NCBI GenBank assembly: GCA_022823825.1 | Contig: JAJEHG010000060.1 | Coordinates: forward strand, 1 to 39,629 | DNA: 39,629 bases | Direction: 5' to 3' | Source: Nitrosopumilaceae archaeon | Lineage (GTDB): Archaea > Thermoproteota > Nitrososphaeria > Nitrososphaerales > Nitrosopumilaceae | In this document: one piece after another, positions 9,413 to 39,552 of the stretch | Numbering within the stretch: the stretch's first letter is position 1 | Layout of the letters: the number at the start of each line of letters is the position of its first letter | Program-made: the position numbers and the translations under genes | Notes under the pieces: generated by a model | What the model saw: only the letters and a program-made list of their open reading frames with translations | Told to the model about the DNA's origin: nothing | Database searches by the model: none

Positions 9413-9576
9413 GCGCTGTATTGGAAACCCGTGGTTATAACGTCACTGACGCCGGCCGCGGGCGCGGGATGCGTGCAAGGGTTTAACCTCTCCAATTGTG
9501 AACACGCCCGACTATCTGGATTTGACCGTATATGGAAGATGAAACGGCCCAATGACGTACGCGGCCATGCACCAAT

Positions 9577-9843
9577 TTATCTGAACCTATAGGATCGCGC
9601 CCGTTTGTAAACCGTTATCACGTAAACCCTCATCACTCCGTTTTGCAAATCCTGTATTGCCCTGTAATCGCCCACGCGCAGTCTGTGTAACGGCACGCCG
9701 GATAGGCGTATCGTGGACGCGTATGGATCGTCTTGCAATCTCATCTATACGGTCCATTATGCGGGCTGCCATTTTTTGTCACTCTTGGCTATCCTCGCCA
9801 GACTATTTTCAGCCTGCTTGGCATAAACGACGTCCCACGCCAA
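9577..9843 (-). pseudogene. RelE/ParE-type toxin, frame broken twice
   Basis: Reading the minus strand from TTG 9843 gives a RelE-like start (AWDVVYAKQAENSLARI, then AKSDKK). At a run of six A (T run 9772-9777 on the plus strand) the frame must shift by one base to continue MAARIMDRIDEI. It must shift back near 9733-9741 to give the typical RelE core and end (DDPYASTIRLSGVPLHRLRV, GDYRAIQDLQNG, VYVITVYKRARS) and a TAA stop at 9577-9579. The two shifts compensate, so the total length (88 codons) is normal for RelE/ParE toxins, which are ribosome-dependent mRNA endonucleases or gyrase poisons. Read without shifts it stops early. It lies 4 bases after an intact antitoxin gene. Decay or sequencing error in a homopolymer are the alternatives. 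Confidence 0.75.
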
Positions 9844-9847
9844 TGCG

Positions 9848-10078
9848 TCACAGCCCAAGTTTCTTCCTCAGGTCCGCGCCGAATATGGTTCTCCCCGCCC
9901 GGACGTCCTGCATCCCCCGTTCTACTGCCTTTAGCTCGTCGTCATTCAGGTGGCGGTCCGCGTCATAGACTGCTATCATTCTCTTTATGACGTCCTCCAG
10001 CGACTCCCGGGGGTGGTTCTTTCTGTCTGAGATTAGCGCCTTTGTCTCTGTATTGATCCTTATAGTGGTTGCAGTCAT
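9848..10078 (-). CDS. RelB/VapB-like antitoxin
   Basis: The 76-aa product begins MTATTIRINTETKALISD and continues RKNHPRESLEDVIKRMIAVY. That is a short beta strand followed by helices, the ribbon-helix-helix DNA-binding pattern of type II antitoxins, with a C-terminal amphipathic segment (DDELKAVERGMQDVRAGR) that would wrap the toxin. Antitoxins of this kind neutralise the partner and repress their own promoter. The frame is open further upstream, but I choose ATG 10078 because a strong TATA-like TTTATATATC lies about 27 bases before it. The partner toxin downstream (9577-9843) has a broken frame. Confidence 0.75.
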   Translation of the reverse strand: MTATTIRINTETKALISDRKNHPRESLEDVIKRMIAVYDADRHLNDDELKAVERGMQDVRAGRTIFGADLRKKLGL

Positions 10079-10240
10079 GTTGTGTATGTCATTGTATATG
10101 GAGATATATAAAATTGTGCGGAGCAGACTAGAAGATGCGGCTGCCGGCCGTTCATACGAATTGCCGGATGGATTTGAGATTATGGGTCCGCGGAGACGTG
10201 CATCAGCAATCCATTTAACTGTCATGCGGTATGGAATGGC

Positions 10241-10525: not shown

Positions 10526-10589
10526 GAATAACGGTTTTCTAGCGCTTGAACCGGGTTCTCCAAAACGCGCCAAGGATGCAACGATATCG

Positions 10590-10618
10590 TTTGTGACATG
10601 GTGCATGTTTGTCACAAA
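10590..10618. repeat. Perfect 8-bp stem-loop between convergent genes
   Basis: TTTGTGAC (10590-10597) and GTCACAAA (10611-10618) are exact reverse complements around a 13-base spacer. The site lies between phhB (plus, ending 10525) and the 385-aa gene (minus, ending 10739), so a bidirectional transcription end is the simplest reading. It also marks the left border of the AT-rich island. The palindromic form would also suit a protein-binding site. Confidence 0.4.
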
Positions 10619-10738
10619 TGCAGTATGGCGCTCCAAAACCAACTGACTAATCCACAAAGTACCTATATGCCGTGTTAATAAAAGCAACATACGTTTTTGT
10701 GGGATTTGCTAGGTGGATTGGGGCAAGCGGTGGTTTTG

Positions 10739-11896
10739 TTATAACGTGGTTTGTGAAGCATCTTTAACTGCTACTTTAAAGCGACTTATTTCGTTTCTGG
10801 CATATTCTTTTCCTTCAATGTATGTTAGAATAGTCTCGTTTTTGTCAAGGATGTTGAGATCACTCCTTATCTTGCCCGCTTCTAACGACTGTTGTTCCAT
10901 ATTGAAGAGTTTTTGCAAAGTTGATTGCTGTTCGTGTAGCATGTCATCAAGCTTTATAGCCGTATCGTTTGGATAAGATTCACGAATTTCTTCTCCCGTG
11001 GTGGTTTTGTAATATCCATAATCAGACTTAATGAATATCCTTTTCCTGTTTTCTAGTTTTTTGTCATCCGAAATTTGCAAGTTTGGATTGTAACCTTTTG
11101 GACCTATGTGGTTTTCACCCAAAATATCCAATCCAAAGCCGTATGCAGTAAAATCTTTGGAAGGAATGACATTGATATTTTTTAGCGTCTTTCCGGGTTT
11201 TGCATTAATTCCATAAATTAGCGTCTGCTCTAGGATCTTTTTTGTTTTTAAGTGTCTTATTATAGGTCGGAGCTTGAGATGATCCGGCGTCCGCCCGTCA
11301 AAATCAAAACAAAATGAAGTAATTTGATTTTTTGCGTAAAAATCCAAAAGTTTTGGGTATAATTCTCTTGGCAATCTGGGGATTGTTCCCATAATGGGTT
11401 TGTTGTTGAACTCTTCAATTGTATCATAACATAATTGTAGATAAGACATGTAGGATGAAAAGTTGGTCTTGTCAATTTTAACACCTGGCAACGGAATTGG
11501 GGTGATATCTGAAAAACTATGGGCAATGTCGGTTAGGAGCTCTATGTCACTCCTCGACGGAAATTGATTTGGTGTGTTCGGGGAGAATTTTAACACACAA
11601 ATGTTAAGATCCGTGGAATGGCTCCGATTGAAGATTCTTGTTAGTTCTCTGGAGTAGCGATCGTGTTCGTCTGCATCGGTTAGCAACTGATTGATCTTAT
11701 CCGAACCAATCTTCCTGTATATCTCACTGAACCCATACGCGTTTTTATTCAACTTTGTATTAGATCGAAACTTGGTAGTGTCCAGTGCTTTTAGAGGCGT
11801 TATTGCTTCTTTGCCGTTGATCTTTACTCTCTGGCTTCTAAAGAGAGACTTACCATTGTCGTCTGCGAGTGACTCTATTTCTAAATGGGTAGTCAT
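10739..11896 (-). CDS. Unrecognised 385-aa protein of the AT-rich island
   Basis: I do not recognise this protein. It is soluble, charged and much poorer in GC codons than the flanking genes. Notable stretches are RVKINGKEAITPLKALD near the N-terminus, GTIPRLPRELYPKLLDFY followed by FCFDFDGRTPDH in the middle, and IYGINAKPGK and YGFGLDILGENHIGPKG later. The alternation of strands and helices with FDFDGR and GLDILGENH could be a TIM-barrel-like enzyme; the N-terminal phrase faintly recalls tRNA-guanine transglycosylase-type proteins, but this is a weak impression. The C-terminal 90 residues are helical and charged (MLHEQQSTLQKLFNMEQQ). It starts 2 bases after the PIN-domain gene and is the last gene of a three-gene operon. 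Confidence 0.75.
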   Translation of the reverse strand: MTTHLEIESLADDNGKSLFRSQRVKINGKEAITPLKALDTTKFRSNTKLNKNAYGFSEIYRKIGSDKINQLLTDADEHDRYSRELTRIFNRSHSTDLNICVLKFSPNTPNQFPSRSDIELLTDIAHSFSDITPIPLPGVKIDKTNFSSYMSYLQLCYDTIEEFNNKPIMGTIPRLPRELYPKLLDFYAKNQITSFCFDFDGRTPDHLKLRPIIRHLKTKKILEQTLIYGINAKPGKTLKNINVIPSKDFTAYGFGLDILGENHIGPKGYNPNLQISDDKKLENRKRIFIKSDYGYYKTTTGEEIRESYPNDTAIKLDDMLHEQQSTLQKLFNMEQQSLEAGKIRSDLNILDKNETILTYIEGKEYARNEISRFKVAVKDASQTTL

Positions 11897-11898
11897 GT

Positions 11899-12363
11899 CT
11901 ATCTCTTCCAGTAAAATGGAGATTTTTGCAGTATTTGGTTTTTTGCATTGTAGGTGATCTCGTCCAATATTCTGTTCTCTTTCATGTAGATCAGCAACTC
12001 GCTAGTCCATTTAAAATCTAACATGCAGAAAATCTTTCGAGCTTTTGAATCGTCTGATACCACATATGTTTTCTCCACACTCTTGGATGATTGTGCGAGC
12101 AATACGGCCTCGCATTCTCCCCTATGCAGTTGTGGATATTCCTTGGATATTTGAGAGACCCTTGTTTGGTCAACTTCCACGATTTTTACTGTTCCTTGCC
12201 TATGTAAGTCCTGCAACATTTCTTTTCCAGGCGATCTTATAATCTCGTCTGCAACGCCTCTTGGAATGAGTATGTCGCAATCGTTTGCGAGCTTAGTCAG
12301 CGCTTCTGGACACTGCATTTCAGACAAAAATGCAATTACAGTGGTTGCGTCTAGAATTTTCAA
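11899..12363 (-). CDS. PIN-domain protein (VapC/DUF3368-like toxin)
   Basis: The 154-aa protein has the acidic residues of a PIN-domain ribonuclease in order: Asp5 (MKILDATTVIAFL), Glu40 (GVADEIIR), Glu83/Glu85 (LHRGECEAVLLAQ) and Asp104/Asp105 (YVVSDDSKARKIF). The motif GECEA plus the SDDxxAR ending is the pattern of the DUF3368-type PIN proteins usually paired with UPF0175-type antitoxins. PIN toxins cleave tRNA or rRNA with Mg or Mn. The catalytic set looks intact. It lies 5 bases after the antitoxin-like gene (12369-12932) and 2 bases before a 385-aa gene, forming a tight operon of AT-rich codon use that suggests transfer. Confidence 0.8.
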   Translation of the reverse strand: MKILDATTVIAFLSEMQCPEALTKLANDCDILIPRGVADEIIRSPGKEMLQDLHRQGTVKIVEVDQTRVSQISKEYPQLHRGECEAVLLAQSSKSVEKTYVVSDDSKARKIFCMLDFKWTSELLIYMKENRILDEITYNAKNQILQKSPFYWKR

Positions 12364-12368
12364 TTATA

Positions 12369-12932
12369 TCACATTTTTAGCTCTGTAAAAAAATCTTGAA
12401 AGTTTTCACCAGCTATTTCGGCAGCCTTCTGGGCACTAATCTTGTCTTTCCGGTACATGGAAATTGCTAATTGTTTACGGTTACGTATTATGCGCTGGTA
12501 TTTGACGGATTCTGTTTCTAGTGAGTTCTGGTCGGGATCGGACAAGTACACGAATGCTAACAACTCGTCCCCGGTCATATCATTAAGAAGTTCCTTGAAT
12601 TCTTCCACCTTCTCTATCTCTCTCTTGCTAGATTTCTTTTTCAATGCAGCTAATGCCGCGCTTCCTTCCTCCGTTAGCCTAAGGCCATCGCGGGACGTTA
12701 CCAGGCCAGATGATTCTAGCTCCTCCAATTCGTCTGTCACAACTTGGCTGTATCGCCCGAACAGATACGGATCGTAATCTGTGTCACGCGCTAGATCTTG
12801 AAACAGATCTTGAAGTAGGTAGATCTCTTTCTGGAGGTGCAGCCGGCCTGGAATGGGCTCGGATTCTTTTGCGCCCATTAACAATATTATAAATCTGTCC
12901 ACTTCATTAAGCTGTTCTATCTCTGGTTCCAT
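12369..12932 (-). CDS. Antitoxin-like protein, winged-helix-like plus UPF0175-like C-terminus
   Basis: I take ATG 12932 (187 aa, MEPEIEQLNEVDRF) as start, although the frame is open to 13166. The N-terminal 80 residues (RLHLQKEIYLLQDLF, YDPYLFGRYSQVVTDELEEL, GLVTSRDGLRLTEEG) read like a winged-helix module seen in archaeal regulators and SocA/Panacea-like antitoxins. A long charged linker follows. The last 35 residues (MYRKDKISAQKAAEIAGEN, then FQDFFTEL) match the UPF0175 antitoxin pattern, a short helix-turn-helix that partners DUF3368 PIN toxins. A role as autorepressor and neutraliser of the PIN protein encoded next is therefore likely. Both family matches are from motif memory. Confidence 0.6.
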   Translation of the reverse strand: MEPEIEQLNEVDRFIILLMGAKESEPIPGRLHLQKEIYLLQDLFQDLARDTDYDPYLFGRYSQVVTDELEELESSGLVTSRDGLRLTEEGSAALAALKKKSSKREIEKVEEFKELLNDMTGDELLAFVYLSDPDQNSLETESVKYQRIIRNRKQLAISMYRKDKISAQKAAEIAGENFQDFFTELKM

Positions 12933-13238
12933 TGATATGCGCACATCTGCGTCGATATGAATTTTTCGTATGATCCATAGCGTGATACAAACTGGTCTCC
13001 GAAAGAAGTTATAGTGCAGCTCGCCAATGGAAAGCCGCAAGTGACTGCCCGTTAACCATGAGCCCCGGTTAGATGCTAGAACAACAGGTATATCATAACA
13101 GGATAGTTGTAATCCCTGTACTGAGAGGCCGTCCGATCCGATCTCATGCAAGACTCCAGTAAGCACCGGCTTGTGTCTATAGTGCTGAGCGTAACCCGTT
13201 TATAGAATTTATAACGATCTCATGCGGGGCACGGTATT

Positions 13239-28691: not shown

Positions 28692-29026
28692 ACGTAGTGG
28701 CTCCTCGCACGCCCTGAATTCGGCCGGGTTATAATTCGCGCGGCACCGCGTTCTCTGAAAGCAGCGGCCGCCTGCTTGACGCATTTGCGGCGTCTGTGGA
28801 CATCACAAGTCTGGCCGTATAGTTACATGATCCTGCCGCCCTCTATGATGAATCCAAGACGGCCGGACTGGGTTCCGTCATTGTCGGATTTTTGCGGACT
28901 TTATTTGTCTAAACAGCATCGTCAGCCACCTTCAACCAAGAAACCGTGACAAAACTCACCCTTCTGAATTTTTTGGTTGTATATGAATTGATGAACGTCA
29001 CTATATATACCGTCTAACATTCTGAA
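28692..29026. promoter_or_regulatory. 335-bp divergent intergenic region with two promoters
   Basis: This region separates the epimerase (minus) from a glycosyltransferase-like gene (plus). TATA-like AATTATAAC (minus, near 28732) and CTATATATAC (plus, 29001-29010, about 22 bases before ATG 29027) are the likely promoters. The right half is clearly AT-richer, marking the composition change into the next gene. No gene is seen in it. Confidence 0.5.
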
Positions 29027-30067
29027 ATGAGGCAGATGAGTAAAAAAACAAGAATCGTATTTTTATATAAATCCTCAGATCCATTCTTTACCGGACACCA
29101 CTCTGATAATACGAGCTATGAATTTTTGATCATGGCCATGCAAAATAACAAAAACATAGACTATAACATCATTCCAGTATCGCATGAGTATGACGTTGGA
29201 AAATTAAAAAACAAGTGCGATGCCGTCATTCTTGCAGGTTTTCGTGACTATAACATGCCCAAAATACATGGCCTCAAGGCACTCAACGTGCCGATACTTG
29301 CTCGTATAGGAGACTTTCATGATGTGACACGGTATGGCATCGGGGAAGACAATTACGACGATTACGGCATCAGCTGCACATTTAATTTCATGAGTGAAAA
29401 ATATTTTTACGAATATTATCCCGCACACATGAATTACAGGGAAATTTTCTTTGGAATTGATCCACCGTTATATGAAAACTTAACACCTTACGAGGATAGA
29501 ATAAAGCACAAAATTCTAGTTTCCGGGGCAATTCAACGTTATCCATACAAGCCTATTATGATATACAGGCGCATTAGATATTTTATGAAAGACATTTTTA
29601 AAAACCCAGAGAAATTACCGTTAAAGACGCGTGTATTGCACCAGCGCCCGCCCTTCTATCATTATTATAAATTAAGATCTGATTGTAGCCATCTCGGATA
29701 CGTCGAATATGGACGCAGGATAGAAAACGAGTCATATCCCATGATGCTGTCTAGATACAGGGGGGCCATCGCGGCCACTACGTACTATCCCACCATAAAA
29801 TACTGGGAAATTGCGGCCGCAGGCTGCCTCACATTCATGGAAATCACGGATAAAAATCATGGCTCGTACTTGGGATTCCAAGACAAGAAAGACTGCATCG
29901 TGATAAACGAGGACAATTACAAGGATCGCTTTGAGGAATATCTGGCAGATACCGACAATCCCACGTGGCAAAGAATCGCGGAGGCGGGGAGAAGCTACGC
30001 CATGCGGAAATTTAACAACAACAAAGCTGTGGAAGACATACTAGGGTTGATTGAAGAATTGTCATAG
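29027..30067 (+). CDS. Probable glycosyltransferase (GT-B-like), AT-rich
   Basis: The 346-aa protein reads like a GT-B-fold glycosyltransferase of the 'glycosyl transferase family 1-like' kind with a C-terminal domain. HLGYVEYGRRIENESYPMML is followed by RYRGAIAATTYYPTIKYWEI and AAAGCLTFMEITDKNHG, resembling the donor-binding pattern in which the chosen subunit is displayed as 'E-x-x-A-A-G'. It ends with DRFEEYLADTDNPTWQRIAE and a typical RSYAMRKFNNNKAVEDI tail. The N-terminal half (RIVFLYKSSDPFF, AVILAGFRDYNMPKIHG) fits the acceptor domain. Codons are AT-rich, unlike most of the window, suggesting recent acquisition. Start could be ATG 29027 or 29036. Confidence 0.7.
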   Translation: MRQMSKKTRIVFLYKSSDPFFTGHHSDNTSYEFLIMAMQNNKNIDYNIIPVSHEYDVGKLKNKCDAVILAGFRDYNMPKIHGLKALNVPILARIGDFHDVTRYGIGEDNYDDYGISCTFNFMSEKYFYEYYPAHMNYREIFFGIDPPLYENLTPYEDRIKHKILVSGAIQRYPYKPIMIYRRIRYFMKDIFKNPEKLPLKTRVLHQRPPFYHYYKLRSDCSHLGYVEYGRRIENESYPMMLSRYRGAIAATTYYPTIKYWEIAAAGCLTFMEITDKNHGSYLGFQDKKDCIVINEDNYKDRFEEYLADTDNPTWQRIAEAGRSYAMRKFNNNKAVEDILGLIEELS

Positions 30068-30099
30068 TTGGCTGCCTGCCGAGATTAGTTGGCTTCCCG

Positions 30100-35816: not shown

Positions 35817-36644
35817 TCACGGCGATCTCGACGGGTACGAGCCCACGTTCTGCGGGGGAAGGGTGGGCATGCGCACTCGCCGCACGCCGAGGTGGTCCCA
35901 CACTTTTACCAGCACCGCTTGCGGGTCGGCGATAAAATCATCAAAATTAACAATCAACATCTTGTCGACTGGGAAGTATTTGTCCCACCGTTCAAGGTGA
36001 CGGGCGTATTCTCCATGCCTGCGGTACATGTGCCATGGATTGCCCATCATGTCACCGCGCAGATATTCAGCGTGCCGTTTCGCCTCGAGCTCCAACGCAA
36101 TTTCGAATGTCGGTGCGGTCTCGTACCCGCCACGGCGCGCCATGTGGTAGTGGGAATACGCCCGGTCCGTCGGGTCGCGTAACATCACGATGATCTTGGC
36201 GCGCGGAGTCATCTCTTGTATGCGCTTGGCTATCGGCAGCGGGTGCGCCAGATAAGATGCAGAAGCCTCACCTGTGATGCGTCCACGGCGTCGGATCGGA
36301 AAAAAGGACCGGTAATAATGTTCGCCATATTCCCACCGTACAAAGTAGAACGAGGGCTCCTTGCCCTTGAGGCAAGGACTAATGTCTGGGTGCATCACAA
36401 TATACTTGTACAGCGACGTGGTAGCACATTTCGGTGCACCGATGATATACCAGTCAGGCAGCGATCGCAGTGGCGACGTAATATACCGATACGGGCTGTT
36501 GTACAGAGGCCACAAGTGCTTGCGGCGCCTGAGCCATTTGCTCAGCGTGCGGCGAGGCCACGACTTGCGCGCGTCATTGTTATGACGCTCAAAAATCTTG
36601 CCAAGAATCCCGCGAGTGGAAGGGAGAGTCAAGACGTTATGCAC
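35817..36644 (-). CDS. Sulfotransferase, probably C-terminally truncated
   Basis: PAPS-dependent sulfotransferases move sulfate onto hydroxyls or amines, here presumably of a surface glycan. The 5'-phosphosulfate loop is WYIIGAPKCATTSLYKYIVM (about residues 64-83). The 3'-phosphate site is KIIVMLRDPTDRAYSHYHMA, with Arg and Ser in the expected places, and LIVNFDDFIADPQAVLVKVW follows. The ORF ends soon after MPTLPPQNVGSYPSRSP, short of the family's C-terminal helix region. A matching tail is found 190 bases further on (35500-35625), so the gene may have suffered an insertion or rearrangement. The first 50 residues are basic. Start GTG 36644 overlaps a small upstream ORF by 16 bases; later starts are possible. 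Confidence 0.8.
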   Translation of the reverse strand: MHNVLTLPSTRGILGKIFERHNNDARKSWPRRTLSKWLRRRKHLWPLYNSPYRYITSPLRSLPDWYIIGAPKCATTSLYKYIVMHPDISPCLKGKEPSFYFVRWEYGEHYYRSFFPIRRRGRITGEASASYLAHPLPIAKRIQEMTPRAKIIVMLRDPTDRAYSHYHMARRGGYETAPTFEIALELEAKRHAEYLRGDMMGNPWHMYRRHGEYARHLERWDKYFPVDKMLIVNFDDFIADPQAVLVKVWDHLGVRRVRMPTLPPQNVGSYPSRSP

Positions 36645-36751
36645 TCTCCGGGCATGAGATCCACAGCAGACATCCAGTTCGTCAAGCGCTCCACGGCCTC
36701 GTCCCAGAGTTGTTGCATGCCTATGGACACCTGATAATTTGTTCGCCGCAT
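36629..36751 (-). CDS. Small ORF upstream of sulfotransferase
   Basis: A 40-codon ORF begins MRRTNYQVSIGMQQLWDEAV and ends LMPGECITS. It has natural composition and overlaps the sulfotransferase start, so coupled translation is possible. A TATA-like GTTTATATC (minus strand, near 36782) lies about 30 bases upstream of this ATG and would be the promoter of both genes; ATG 36775 in the same frame is an alternative. No family recognised. Confidence 0.35.
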   Translation of the reverse strand: MRRTNYQVSIGMQQLWDEAVERLTNWMSAVDLMPGECITS

Positions 36752-37117
36752 GTTTTCACAGGTAGGTTCTCTCATAGATATAAACTTAGATTCGACACGT
36801 ATTCCAACGTGAAGGCGCCTGCATCTTTTTGGTTTAAGCATCGTCTCAGCTACCCGTGGGAAGGTAGCGTTAGCACATACCGCGCCACTGTCATGGCAGC
36901 CGGGATCCGGCATGGACATATCGACAGCGGGATACCACCGTCAATGTTCGGTACGGTGGAGGGACGCGGTGATCCGAGGACAATCGAGCAGCACCCGCGA
37001 CCCCTCATGTCACGCTGTGTCTTCGCGCCGAAGGAACGATACGGCGGCCTAGTCGTTACCACATAAGCCGAGACACGGCTGAATTTGACTGATCTTATAC
37101 TTGTGATTGTTGATCTT
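36752..37117. other. 366-bp gap, no confident gene
   Basis: The left end carries the promoter-like GTTTATATC (minus strand, near 36782). A plus-strand frame ending at 37066 (HRLSYPWEGSVSTYRATVM...ERYGGLVVTT) shows fairly natural composition and might be a gene remnant, but no start, promoter or family was found. Codon composition is GC-rich compared with the AT-rich gene to its right. Confidence 0.35.
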
Positions 37118-38140
37118 TTATTCGGCTCCCGTCAACCTATCTGACAGTAGTTTTTGAAAATCGGGTATGTCGCGAGTATACAAAAGGCAAACAGACATAT
37201 AATCACTTTGATCGATATTTCGTGCCATTTTTACTGCGTTGTGATCTGCATGTTTTGAAGCCCATCTGAATCCGTTTATTGTATTCGCGTATTGGTTTCG
37301 GAATGCGTAAAGATACAAATACAATATTGGGTGGCGAATCACAGTTCGATAAGTCATTCGACGTAGTAGATTTTTTCTGTATTTGCTACGTTGCTCTTGC
37401 AACGCGTTTATCACATTAGTGTAATTTGCATAAAGCCATATGCCAAATTGAAACTGCTTCCATGGATAATCTGCATTTTCAAGTTCTAAGTTATGCGTCG
37501 CTGTTATATTATGCAATTCAATCCGGGCACGTTTTTTAAACAGTTGCTTAAACGTAAATACGTCCGTGTCGTTGTAAATCTGGCGATACTTTGCTTGATC
37601 CATGTCCTCAAAATAATATGGACGGTATATCCAGTACGTTCCCACACCCACATTTTTTCGATTGAGCCATCGGCGCCATATGTAGCGTATGGCATATCTG
37701 GGCTTAAAACATGGACGCGCATTCATAGTTACAACTGCAGCATTGTTTTTACCCACATATTCGAGCCCTTTTAGCATTCCGCGTTTTAGTACAGAGTCGG
37801 CGTTAAATGTATACATGTAGTCGTTTTTACACTGTGAGTAACAGTTCCACAGGACATGAGACAAATGCATATTCCATGATTCGGAGCGCTCGGTTTGAAT
37901 CATCCTCACATTGGTTTTAGAACTATGCCCTGACGCCTCAACTATCCTGCTTATGTAATCTACAAAAGATTTGGATGCCGGTGCGTCGATTCCCACAATA
38001 AATTCATCTGGATTTAGTGCCAATGCGGATGGTATTGATCGCGTTGCAAACTTGCGCTCGCGCAACGCATCACGGAGTGGCATTACAATGCTGAATTTTG
38101 GGTTGTTGTGGTGACCGCGGGACATGTTACATTTCATCAT
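37118..38140 (-). CDS. Probable glycosyltransferase family 2-type, AT-rich
   Basis: The 340-aa protein begins, after a short leader, with PKFSIVMPLRDALRERKFAT and PSALALNPDEFIVGIDAPAS, the first strands of a GT-A fold. It contains a DxD-like FNADSVLKRGMLKGLEYVG (Ala-Asp-Ser) at the metal/nucleotide site. The second half is basic and aromatic (RYAIRYIWRRWLNRKNVGVG, RMTYRTVIRHPILYLYLYAF), possibly a membrane-associating region. AT-rich codons suggest import. The start may be ATG 38140 or 38125. A TATAAA-like block (38162-38169) is 26 bases before 38140. It is divergent from the dehydrogenase gene. Confidence 0.7.
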   Translation of the reverse strand: MMKCNMSRGHHNNPKFSIVMPLRDALRERKFATRSIPSALALNPDEFIVGIDAPASKSFVDYISRIVEASGHSSKTNVRMIQTERSESWNMHLSHVLWNCYSQCKNDYMYTFNADSVLKRGMLKGLEYVGKNNAAVVTMNARPCFKPRYAIRYIWRRWLNRKNVGVGTYWIYRPYYFEDMDQAKYRQIYNDTDVFTFKQLFKKRARIELHNITATHNLELENADYPWKQFQFGIWLYANYTNVINALQEQRSKYRKNLLRRMTYRTVIRHPILYLYLYAFRNQYANTINGFRWASKHADHNAVKMARNIDQSDYMSVCLLYTRDIPDFQKLLSDRLTGAE

Positions 38141-38151
38141 GCCCGCGCTTA

Positions 38152-38170
38152 CTTTTTATTGTTTATAAAA
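38152..38170. promoter_or_regulatory. Overlapping divergent TATA boxes
   Basis: TTTTTATTG followed by TTTATAAAA lies between divergent starts at 38140 (minus) and 38183 (plus). The palindromic TTTATAAA is about 26 bases from the minus start. The left block TTTTTATTG is about 28 bases from the plus GTG. Each start therefore has one correctly spaced box, and the two boxes overlap the partner's transcript start. Confidence 0.5.
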
Positions 38171-38182
38171 TTCCGTCATAAC

Positions 38183-39508
38183 GTGAATATCGGATTTGTG
38201 GGCCTGGGAAAACTTGGACTTCCTTCTGCGCTAGCCATAGAGTCCAAGGGACACGTAGTGACAGGATACGACGTAAACCCCAACATCGCGACATACATAG
38301 AAAACAAGCAGATCCCATACATGGAGGAAAACGTTCCGGATCTTCTTAACAAGACATCTATTCAAATGCTGCCGCTGGCAGATGTCTTACGGCTTTCTGA
38401 GATTGTGTTTGTGGCAGTTCAAACTCCGCACGATCCATTGTATGAAGGAGTGACAGCGCTTCCGGAGACCACTGCAGATTTCGATTATACGTACCTCAAA
38501 AACTCATGCCGCGCCATATCCGAGGAGCTTGATGTGCTGAAGCAAGATCGCATAGTTATAATAATAAGCACGGTTCTGCCGGGGGTCATTGAACAAGAAA
38601 TCAAACCACTCCTCTCAAAGCATGTCAAGCTTTGTTACAACCCATTCTTTATTGCAATGGGCACTACGGTGCATGACTTTCTGCATCCCGAGATAGTGCT
38701 GTTTGGGGTAGACGACAAAGATGCAGTATTGAAAGCTAAGAAATTTTATCGCACCGTTACTGACGCTCCGTTTCACGAGATGTCGATCGTGAACGCCGAG
38801 CTGGTCAAGGTAAACTACAATACATACATTTCGATGAAGATCAACTTTGCAAACAACTTGATGGAGATATGTGAAAAGATGCGCGATCAAGGAGCTGACG
38901 TGGACGTAGTAATGGACGCGCTTTCAGATTGTACCAAGCGCATAATCAGTCCCGCATACATGAGGGGTGGAATGCCAGATGGTGGTGGATGCCATCCTCG
39001 CGACAATATTGCACTGGCAGATTTTGCCAAGCGCCATGCACTCTCCAATGATGTCTACACGGAAGGAATGATGGTACGCGAACACCATATCAAGTGGTTT
39101 GCAGACATGATCAGATCTTACAAAATGCCCAAAGTCATATTAGGAAAAGCGTATAAGCCGGGCACCAACCTGACGGTGGGAAGTCCTTCTATTAGACTTT
39201 ACAACGAGCTGCTACATGATGTTGCATCTGCGCAGAGAGAAAAGGAAGTAGCGGCGGAAAGGAAAAACCATGCTTCGCCCACTCGCACTTCTACTCCCCC
39301 CATAATGTGGGATCCGTATGTGGACTCCAAAAGGCCTGCAGAACTTGATAAACCCGCAGTATTTTTTGTTGGAACGCGCCACGAACAGTTTCGTGACTTT
39401 GATTATCCCAAAGGAAGCGTAGTGATAGATCCGTTCGGATACGTAAACCCAAGCGAGGGTGTCACCTTAGTCAAGGTCGGTCGCCAACAGGAGGTTGGTA
39501 CCGAATGA
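38183..39508 (+). CDS. Nucleotide-sugar dehydrogenase (UDP-glucose/GDP-mannose dehydrogenase family)
   Basis: From GTG 38183 the product has 441 aa and begins MNIGFVGLGKLGLPSALAIE. Family motifs follow: VTGYDVNPNIATYIENK, FVAVQTPHDPLYEG, IIISTVLPGVIEQE, YNTYISMKINFANNLMEICE, the catalytic Cys in MPDGGGCHPRDNIALADFAK, and KVILGKAYKPGTNLTVGSPS. The reaction is four-electron oxidation of a nucleotide hexose to a uronate. The active-site loop differs from the 31560-33005 enzyme (GGGCHPRD instead of GGPCLPVN), so substrates probably differ. The frame is open upstream to 38108, but the family starts at the GTG, which also fits the promoter spacing. The C-terminal domain holds a Lys/Arg/Glu-rich linker (REKEVAAERKNHASPTR). 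Confidence 0.9.
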   Translation: MNIGFVGLGKLGLPSALAIESKGHVVTGYDVNPNIATYIENKQIPYMEENVPDLLNKTSIQMLPLADVLRLSEIVFVAVQTPHDPLYEGVTALPETTADFDYTYLKNSCRAISEELDVLKQDRIVIIISTVLPGVIEQEIKPLLSKHVKLCYNPFFIAMGTTVHDFLHPEIVLFGVDDKDAVLKAKKFYRTVTDAPFHEMSIVNAELVKVNYNTYISMKINFANNLMEICEKMRDQGADVDVVMDALSDCTKRIISPAYMRGGMPDGGGCHPRDNIALADFAKRHALSNDVYTEGMMVREHHIKWFADMIRSYKMPKVILGKAYKPGTNLTVGSPSIRLYNELLHDVASAQREKEVAAERKNHASPTRTSTPPIMWDPYVDSKRPAELDKPAVFFVGTRHEQFRDFDYPKGSVVIDPFGYVNPSEGVTLVKVGRQQEVGTE

Positions 39509-39552
39509 CGATATTCGTCGTGCCAGCCCAGCCAACTGGCAGATTAATATGA
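39505..39552 (+). CDS. Very short coupled ORF after dehydrogenase
   Basis: ATG 39505 overlaps the dehydrogenase stop (ATGA) and encodes only MTIFVVPAQPTGRLI before TGA. The coupled start and hydrophobic first strand look like the beginning of an enzyme of the sugar locus that has been cut short. A hairpin lies inside its 3' half. It could also be accidental. Confidence 0.25.
   Translation: MTIFVVPAQPTGRLI
39521..39541. terminator. Possible terminator hairpin
   Basis: TGCCAG (39521-39526) pairs with CTGGCA (39536-39541) around a 9-base loop, followed by AT-rich DNA (GATTAATATGATCTAATTT). Position just after the dehydrogenase gene suggests transcription termination. The stem is short, so confidence is low. 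Confidence 0.35.

Follow-up and report, generated by a model that had tools for sequence, protein, structure and literature searches.

Three genes between two pterin genes

The window, by which we mean the whole stretch of 39,629 nucleotides that was analysed, carries an AT-rich operon of three minus-strand genes at positions 10739-12932, with intergenic gaps of 5 and 2 bases. In the direction of transcription these encode: i) a composite antitoxin/regulator of 187 aa (12369..12932); ii) a PIN-domain ribonuclease of 154 aa, the predicted toxin, which has a TTG start and lies 5 bp from the antitoxin gene (11899..12363); and iii) a third component of 385 aa (10739..11896; ATG start, 2 bp from the PIN gene), predicted from family alignments, profile matches to archaeal tRNA-guanine transglycosylase (TGT, which exchanges bases in tRNA) and a residue test to be a TGT-related (beta/alpha)-barrel protein. 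The three genes have GC contents between 38 and 45% (41% for the PIN gene), compared with 54-63% for the genes on either side, their GC3 is 0.40-0.48, against 0.69-0.86 in the neighbouring genes, and the GC minimum of the window (profiled in 2.2-kb steps) falls at the cassette. The genes on either side were identified by Pfam matches as the pterin genes PCD (PF01329; 10241-10525) and PTPS (PF01242; 13239-14105). In all of the 14 congeners inspected (L161-L174) PCD and PTPS adjoin, less than about 100 bp apart, with no gene of the cassette in between; the order PCD-PTPS-LeuRS is retained in these congeners, with an asparagine-synthase-like gene upstream and, where the locus extends far enough, PurB upstream as well. 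Since the two pterin genes are uninterrupted in the congeners, the cassette represents an acquisition by this genome or a close lineage at a housekeeping locus, and the GC profile together with the conserved adjacency delimits the AT-rich insertion, which has no strand of its own, to 10526..13238. A search for direct or inverted repeats flanking the insertion yielded none that was convincing.

Several other features of the window were recorded in passing. Beside the cassette, between the asparagine-synthase-like gene and PCD, lies a decayed second toxin-antitoxin pair (9558-10225, minus strand), in which a VapB/ribbon-helix-helix-like antitoxin gene (9848-10225) precedes a RelE-type toxin frame that is broken by internal stops and frame changes. 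Further AT-rich stretches at 29000-30070 and 35817-39510 contain, as judged by eye, apparent surface-sugar genes: two encoding glycosyltransferase-like proteins (346 and 340 aa), one UDP-sugar dehydrogenase-like and one sulfotransferase-like.

The antitoxin gene starts with an ATG at 12932; its reading frame stays open as far as a GTG at 13166, yet the homologues begin near 12932. The C-terminus of the protein is a UPF0175 domain (PF03683) that scores 28.6-29.5 bits against a curated cut-off of 27.9 and is present in all seven aligned antitoxins, whereas the N-terminus shows weak matches to wHTH, SocA/Panacea and DarG-type models. We take the protein to be, on these matches, a winged-helix domain of the SocA-Panacea/DarG-CTD-like kind followed by a UPF0175 HTH. 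A SocA_Panacea domain was matched weakly (E=0.0021) in one of the seven antitoxins, which is not the protein of the window, and membership of the Panacea antitoxins is not supported. The nuclease matches the PADLOC model PDC-S70 (E=6e-12), as do proteins at two homologous loci (L015 and L049), and its alignment with homologues shows two invariant acidic positions, E40 and D104. The UPF0175 part of the antitoxin also matches PDC-S70 models. The components of a UPF0175(COG2886)-PIN type II system are therefore present, namely a UPF0175 HTH and an adjacent PIN nuclease with acidic residues; UPF0175 is known to pair with PIN and with RelE toxins (PMC2701414), and VapC-type PIN toxins cleave tRNA or rRNA (PMC10440598). 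According to the available part of the source (PMC12988326), PDC-S70 is a phage-defence candidate of PADLOC, a PIN nuclease that is predominantly archaeal and possibly of archaeal origin; its proteins are counted there among the commonest putative archaeal defence genes, and most PDCs are said to lack experimental validation. The original prediction, made from the nucleotide sequence, was borne out as to gene positions, strand and gaps, the sharp compositional contrast with both flanks and the separation of the two pterin genes, and it had correctly read the first protein as a fusion of a winged helix with a UPF0175-like tail and the second as a PIN nuclease with its acidic residues.

Conservation of the unit across Thermoproteota

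The third protein had been described as matching nothing known, and this held in searches with the single sequence and with the family against Pfam, NCBIfam, PADLOC, PHROGs and PDB sequences, none of which returned a match; profile searches of PDB with two family alignments (A1 and A7) gave chance matches only. Homologues that are about 17-30% identical were recovered from Thermoproteota genomes and from one Haloarcula plasmid, the only one found in the plasmid search. Viral contigs and phage records contained no homologue, so that an origin as a phage gene is unsupported. A scan of genome contigs with a profile of a four-member subset recovered four loci, all of which were also found by the other searches.

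The genetic context of the family was strongly conserved. A profile match to the composite antitoxin adjoins the 385-aa gene in 20 of the 21 aligned homologues, and an RNase toxin is present as well in 19. The exceptions are the Haloarcula locus (L013), which has neither a recognised antitoxin nor a recognised toxin as neighbour, and L058, where an antitoxin but no recognised toxin was found; furthermore, a pseudogene remnant of the 385-aa gene (L059) has no partner, and two copies that contig ends cut short (L125, L126) have the antitoxin. Two layouts occur: an antitoxin-toxin-TGT-like operon with the third gene last, as in the window and two other loci (L049, L061), and, in most loci, a third gene that diverges from the antitoxin-toxin pair, with starts that are mostly 23-77 bp apart. 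The toxin is a PIN protein in 14 of 18 tabulated loci and has the ParE/RelE fold in the other four, three of which (L014, L016, L053) were assigned by PF05016 and one (L047) by its sequence likeness to these. The toxin has thus been swapped on at least two branches (L014/L016/L047 and L053), and the antitoxin and the third gene are kept there. The distances between third genes correlate with those between antitoxins (Mantel r=0.92, permutation p about 2e-4) and with those between PIN proteins (r=0.62), although the agreement of the third-gene and antitoxin trees could partly reflect a shared species history.

Most of these loci were found via the third gene, and a test that starts from the antitoxin is therefore more independent. 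In 398 Thermoproteota genomes, 18 of the 20 strong antitoxin matches (E<=1e-20) came from genomes in which the 385-aa family is present too, and of the two remaining genomes one (G364) has a PIN gene and a short, weakly matching frame alongside. A long-known UPF0175-PIN or UPF0175-RelE pair (PMC2701414) beside which an unrelated gene hitch-hikes, in other words an ordinary two-gene system of the COG2886-PIN or PDC-S70 type, would explain the antitoxin and the toxin. This is very improbable for the cassette as a whole, given that the neighbour is conserved at 19-20 of 21 loci, in many families, in two layouts and with congruent trees, and that the composite antitoxin is rarely found without it. 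The comparative evidence thus presents the wHTH+UPF0175 protein, the PIN (or RelE/ParE-fold) nuclease and the 385-aa protein as one inherited unit across Thermoproteota. The two-component toxin-antitoxin with an added third gene that the original prediction proposed is, accordingly, a conserved module, and the opposite pattern, a 385-aa gene that occurs mostly away from PIN and antitoxin genes, was looked for and is not what the loci display.

Among the weaker antitoxin matches, two Nitrosopumilaceae loci (L127, 1766-3754; L131, 2947-4787) contain a winged-helix antitoxin-like gene with a divergent neighbour that encodes 385-412 aa and shows, close to the beginning, the TGT-like sequence EIKT..GT.E(T/S)P. 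At another locus (L130, 2670-3764) ankyrin-like repeats are fused to a winged-helix domain of the antitoxin type.

Relation of the third protein to TGT

The connection of the third protein with TGT came from profile comparisons. With a profile of eight members of the family, the three matches at the bottom of the reported list, ranking after the family itself, were archaeal TGTs; with a profile of 21 members, the matches below the family in the 398 genomes were nearly all frames some 500 aa long that align at profile positions of about 308-371, and eight of the ten that we opened were TGTs. When the family was compared directly with archaeal TGT by hhalign, the score was 49.2 (E=8.8e-6); 200 column shuffles averaged 14.8 and reached 23.6 at most. 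Locally, the best match extends over 77 columns that follow the predicted barrel (profile 299-375 versus TGT 269-345), and the significant similarity is concentrated there. A global alignment is collinear across the catalytic domain, but weak; collinear stretches include R..l...g..v.TP at the N-terminus and N...E...ir..I...l..y...K at the C-terminus.

The residues on which TGT activity depends are missing. TGT requires two aspartates, and three Cys together with a His make up its zinc site (PMC6165067). None of the 21 family members has the CxCxxC motif (16 of 18 TGTs), the Asp of the DSG motif (18 of 18) or the nucleophile motif D.FDS (17 of 18). In the merged alignment, the nucleophile column is mostly Asn, with Asp in four of the 21 members, and the position of the zinc His is occupied by F/Y/R/V/I/L in 19, by H in one and by a gap in one; the Asn directly after it is kept in 20. 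The TGT domain PF01702 was matched by none of eight members, even at E<=5. On these grounds membership of the TGT family (PF01702) was rejected, as was, by the residue test, identity with an active TGT or DpdA. The family keeps a set of its own: E58, P135, P173, D198, N231, D248, G260, Y293 and N332 are invariant or nearly so, and the polar ones among them are E58, D198, N231, D248, Y293 and N332. Two AF2 models, made with five sequences each, are of low confidence (pLDDT 43 and 50); strands and helices alternate in them, and the conserved residues are located at strand ends. Taken together, profiles and residues indicate a distant relationship of the protein to archaeal TGT, namely to its catalytic domain, with the zinc site and the conserved catalytic aspartates absent; it is for this reason a relative of TGT and not a TGT.

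We also considered that the protein could belong to another superfamily of TIM barrels, as an enzyme that acts on small molecules or as a sensor of a ligand, its likeness to TGT being local and limited to one helical segment. Foldseek searches with the low-confidence models returned mostly TIM barrels, with aldolases, RuBisCO and DHODH at the top, TGT not first and no match below E=1e-3, and the significant similarity to TGT spans only about 75 residues, as such a reading would have it. It is nevertheless unlikely in our judgement, because in many genomes TGT recurs independently, each time at the same place in the profile and beyond the expectation from shuffling, and because stretches at both the N- and the C-terminus are collinear with TGT.

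A separate, normal TGT is encoded elsewhere in 14 of the 15 genomes that carry the module, and the module therefore does not replace it. Two of the module-bearing genomes (G413 and G308) encode in addition a short second TGT-like protein (L084, 1387-2421, 344 aa; L085, 1252-2163, 303 aa) that keeps the DSG motif and is possibly DpdA-like. In a congener, an antitoxin-like winged-helix gene is accompanied by a 415-aa protein with a TGT-zinc-like CDCKYC...H and without a PF01702 match (L124, 2993-5692).

Predicted function and comparison with known systems

The toxin fold changes from locus to locus and the other two components stay, which suggests to us that the third protein functions together with the antitoxin and not with one particular toxin. 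With the catalytic residues lost and a conserved pocket retained, binding of an RNA or a base-like ligand is favoured over base exchange. We thus envisage that the wHTH+UPF0175 protein would repress the operon and neutralise the nuclease, and that the TGT-like barrel would perform no base exchange and instead bind either RNA (tRNA or tRNA-like) or a nucleobase or 7-deazaguanine-type ligand. Such binding would decide if the antitoxin keeps hold of the nuclease or lets it go, and the third subunit could in this way couple the state of tRNA, or infection, to toxin release and hence to dormancy or abortive infection. On the biochemical side, the third part is probably a rewired TGT-like barrel that senses RNA or a nucleobase. 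The reading as a whole, a horizontally acquired and conserved three-component RNase toxin-antitoxin module with a TGT-like barrel as its sensor or regulatory subunit, has in our estimate an even chance of being correct.

The original prediction had pointed to enzyme-like motifs and to a possible modifying enzyme. The motif FDFDG and the GLDILGENH region do fall within the predicted TGT-related beta/alpha barrel, and the absence of the TGT catalytic and zinc residues leaves the label of modifying enzyme unsecured. The third protein could also be an active enzyme whose chemistry has been rewired (towards base exchange, N-glycosidic cleavage or base modification) and which marks or repairs the RNA target of the toxin, so acting as a second, enzymatic antitoxin. 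This would be in keeping with the TGT ancestry, with conserved polar residues of its own at predicted strand ends (D198, N231, D248, Y293) and with the TGT homologues of the Dpd and BRC defence systems (PMC6884629, PMC12839542). We consider it improbable, as none of the 21 members has the zinc site, as the two catalytic Asp of TGT are not conserved either, and as no gene of the preQ0 or another 7-deazaguanine pathway was noticed beside the module at the loci inspected. Returning to the sensor, we tentatively extend it one step further: a degenerate TGT paralogue that reads the tRNA or 7-deazaguanine status, as a sensor or as an enzyme with a new specificity, and on that basis licenses an exchangeable RNase toxin might represent a new class of archaeal immunity or stress module that links the tRNA modification machinery to abortive defence.

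A role in defence, also part of the original prediction, is plausible, given the PDC-S70 label and four loci, among those inspected, that have restriction-modification or OLD/Gabija-like genes alongside (L013, L014, L016, L058). We grade it no higher because the locus of the window is a housekeeping locus and not a defence island.

No description of the three-gene unit was found in the literature searched, which missed most subscription journals and preprints, and the third component appears to be undescribed there. Its near-constant presence suggests a three-part system and not a plain toxin-antitoxin pair. Should the TGT-like partner prove necessary, the functional unit has been overlooked in this lineage, the PDC-S70 PIN protein having been scored as a single gene. 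Nothing in the sources searched had pointed to tRNA-modification machinery recruited into a toxin-antitoxin circuit; a relative of TGT that is linked to RNases with two unrelated folds would be a first indication of it, and supplies a candidate trigger that is directly testable.

The closest known systems each share part of this arrangement. PDC-S70, models of which match both the PIN protein and the UPF0175 part, is treated in the available part of its source as a single-gene PIN system, with no partner mentioned there (PMC12988326), whereas we find three genes. The type II pairs COG2886/UPF0175-PIN and COG2886-RelE (Makarova 2009, PMC2701414) likewise combine a UPF0175 HTH antitoxin with a PIN or RelE toxin, but their UPF0175 protein is small, while in the present module it has a winged helix fused to its N-terminus and is joined by a near-obligate third gene. 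The hyperpromiscuous Panacea/PanA antitoxins (PMC8832971, PMC10440598) resemble the module in that one type of antitoxin occurs with swapped toxins; the UPF0175 domain and the TGT-like third gene are extra here. Archaeal TGT (PF01702) is the closest profile match of the third protein, with collinear N- and C-terminal stretches, and differs from it in its zinc ligands, its conserved catalytic Asp pair and its C-terminal extension, none of which the 385-aa family has. A precedent for a TGT fold that serves without catalytic residues as a partner subunit is QTRT2, the non-catalytic subunit of eukaryotic TGT (PMC6165067), which has kept its zinc domain and is partnered by an active TGT, whereas the partner of the present protein is an RNase toxin module. 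Finally, the Dpd and BREX-related capture (BRC) systems (PMC6884629, PMC12839542) also place a TGT homologue (DpdA/TGT) in a defence setting, as a known or proposed modification part, but there it is read as an active DNA-modifying enzyme with restriction or HerA/PglZ partners, and here its companions are a toxin-antitoxin pair.
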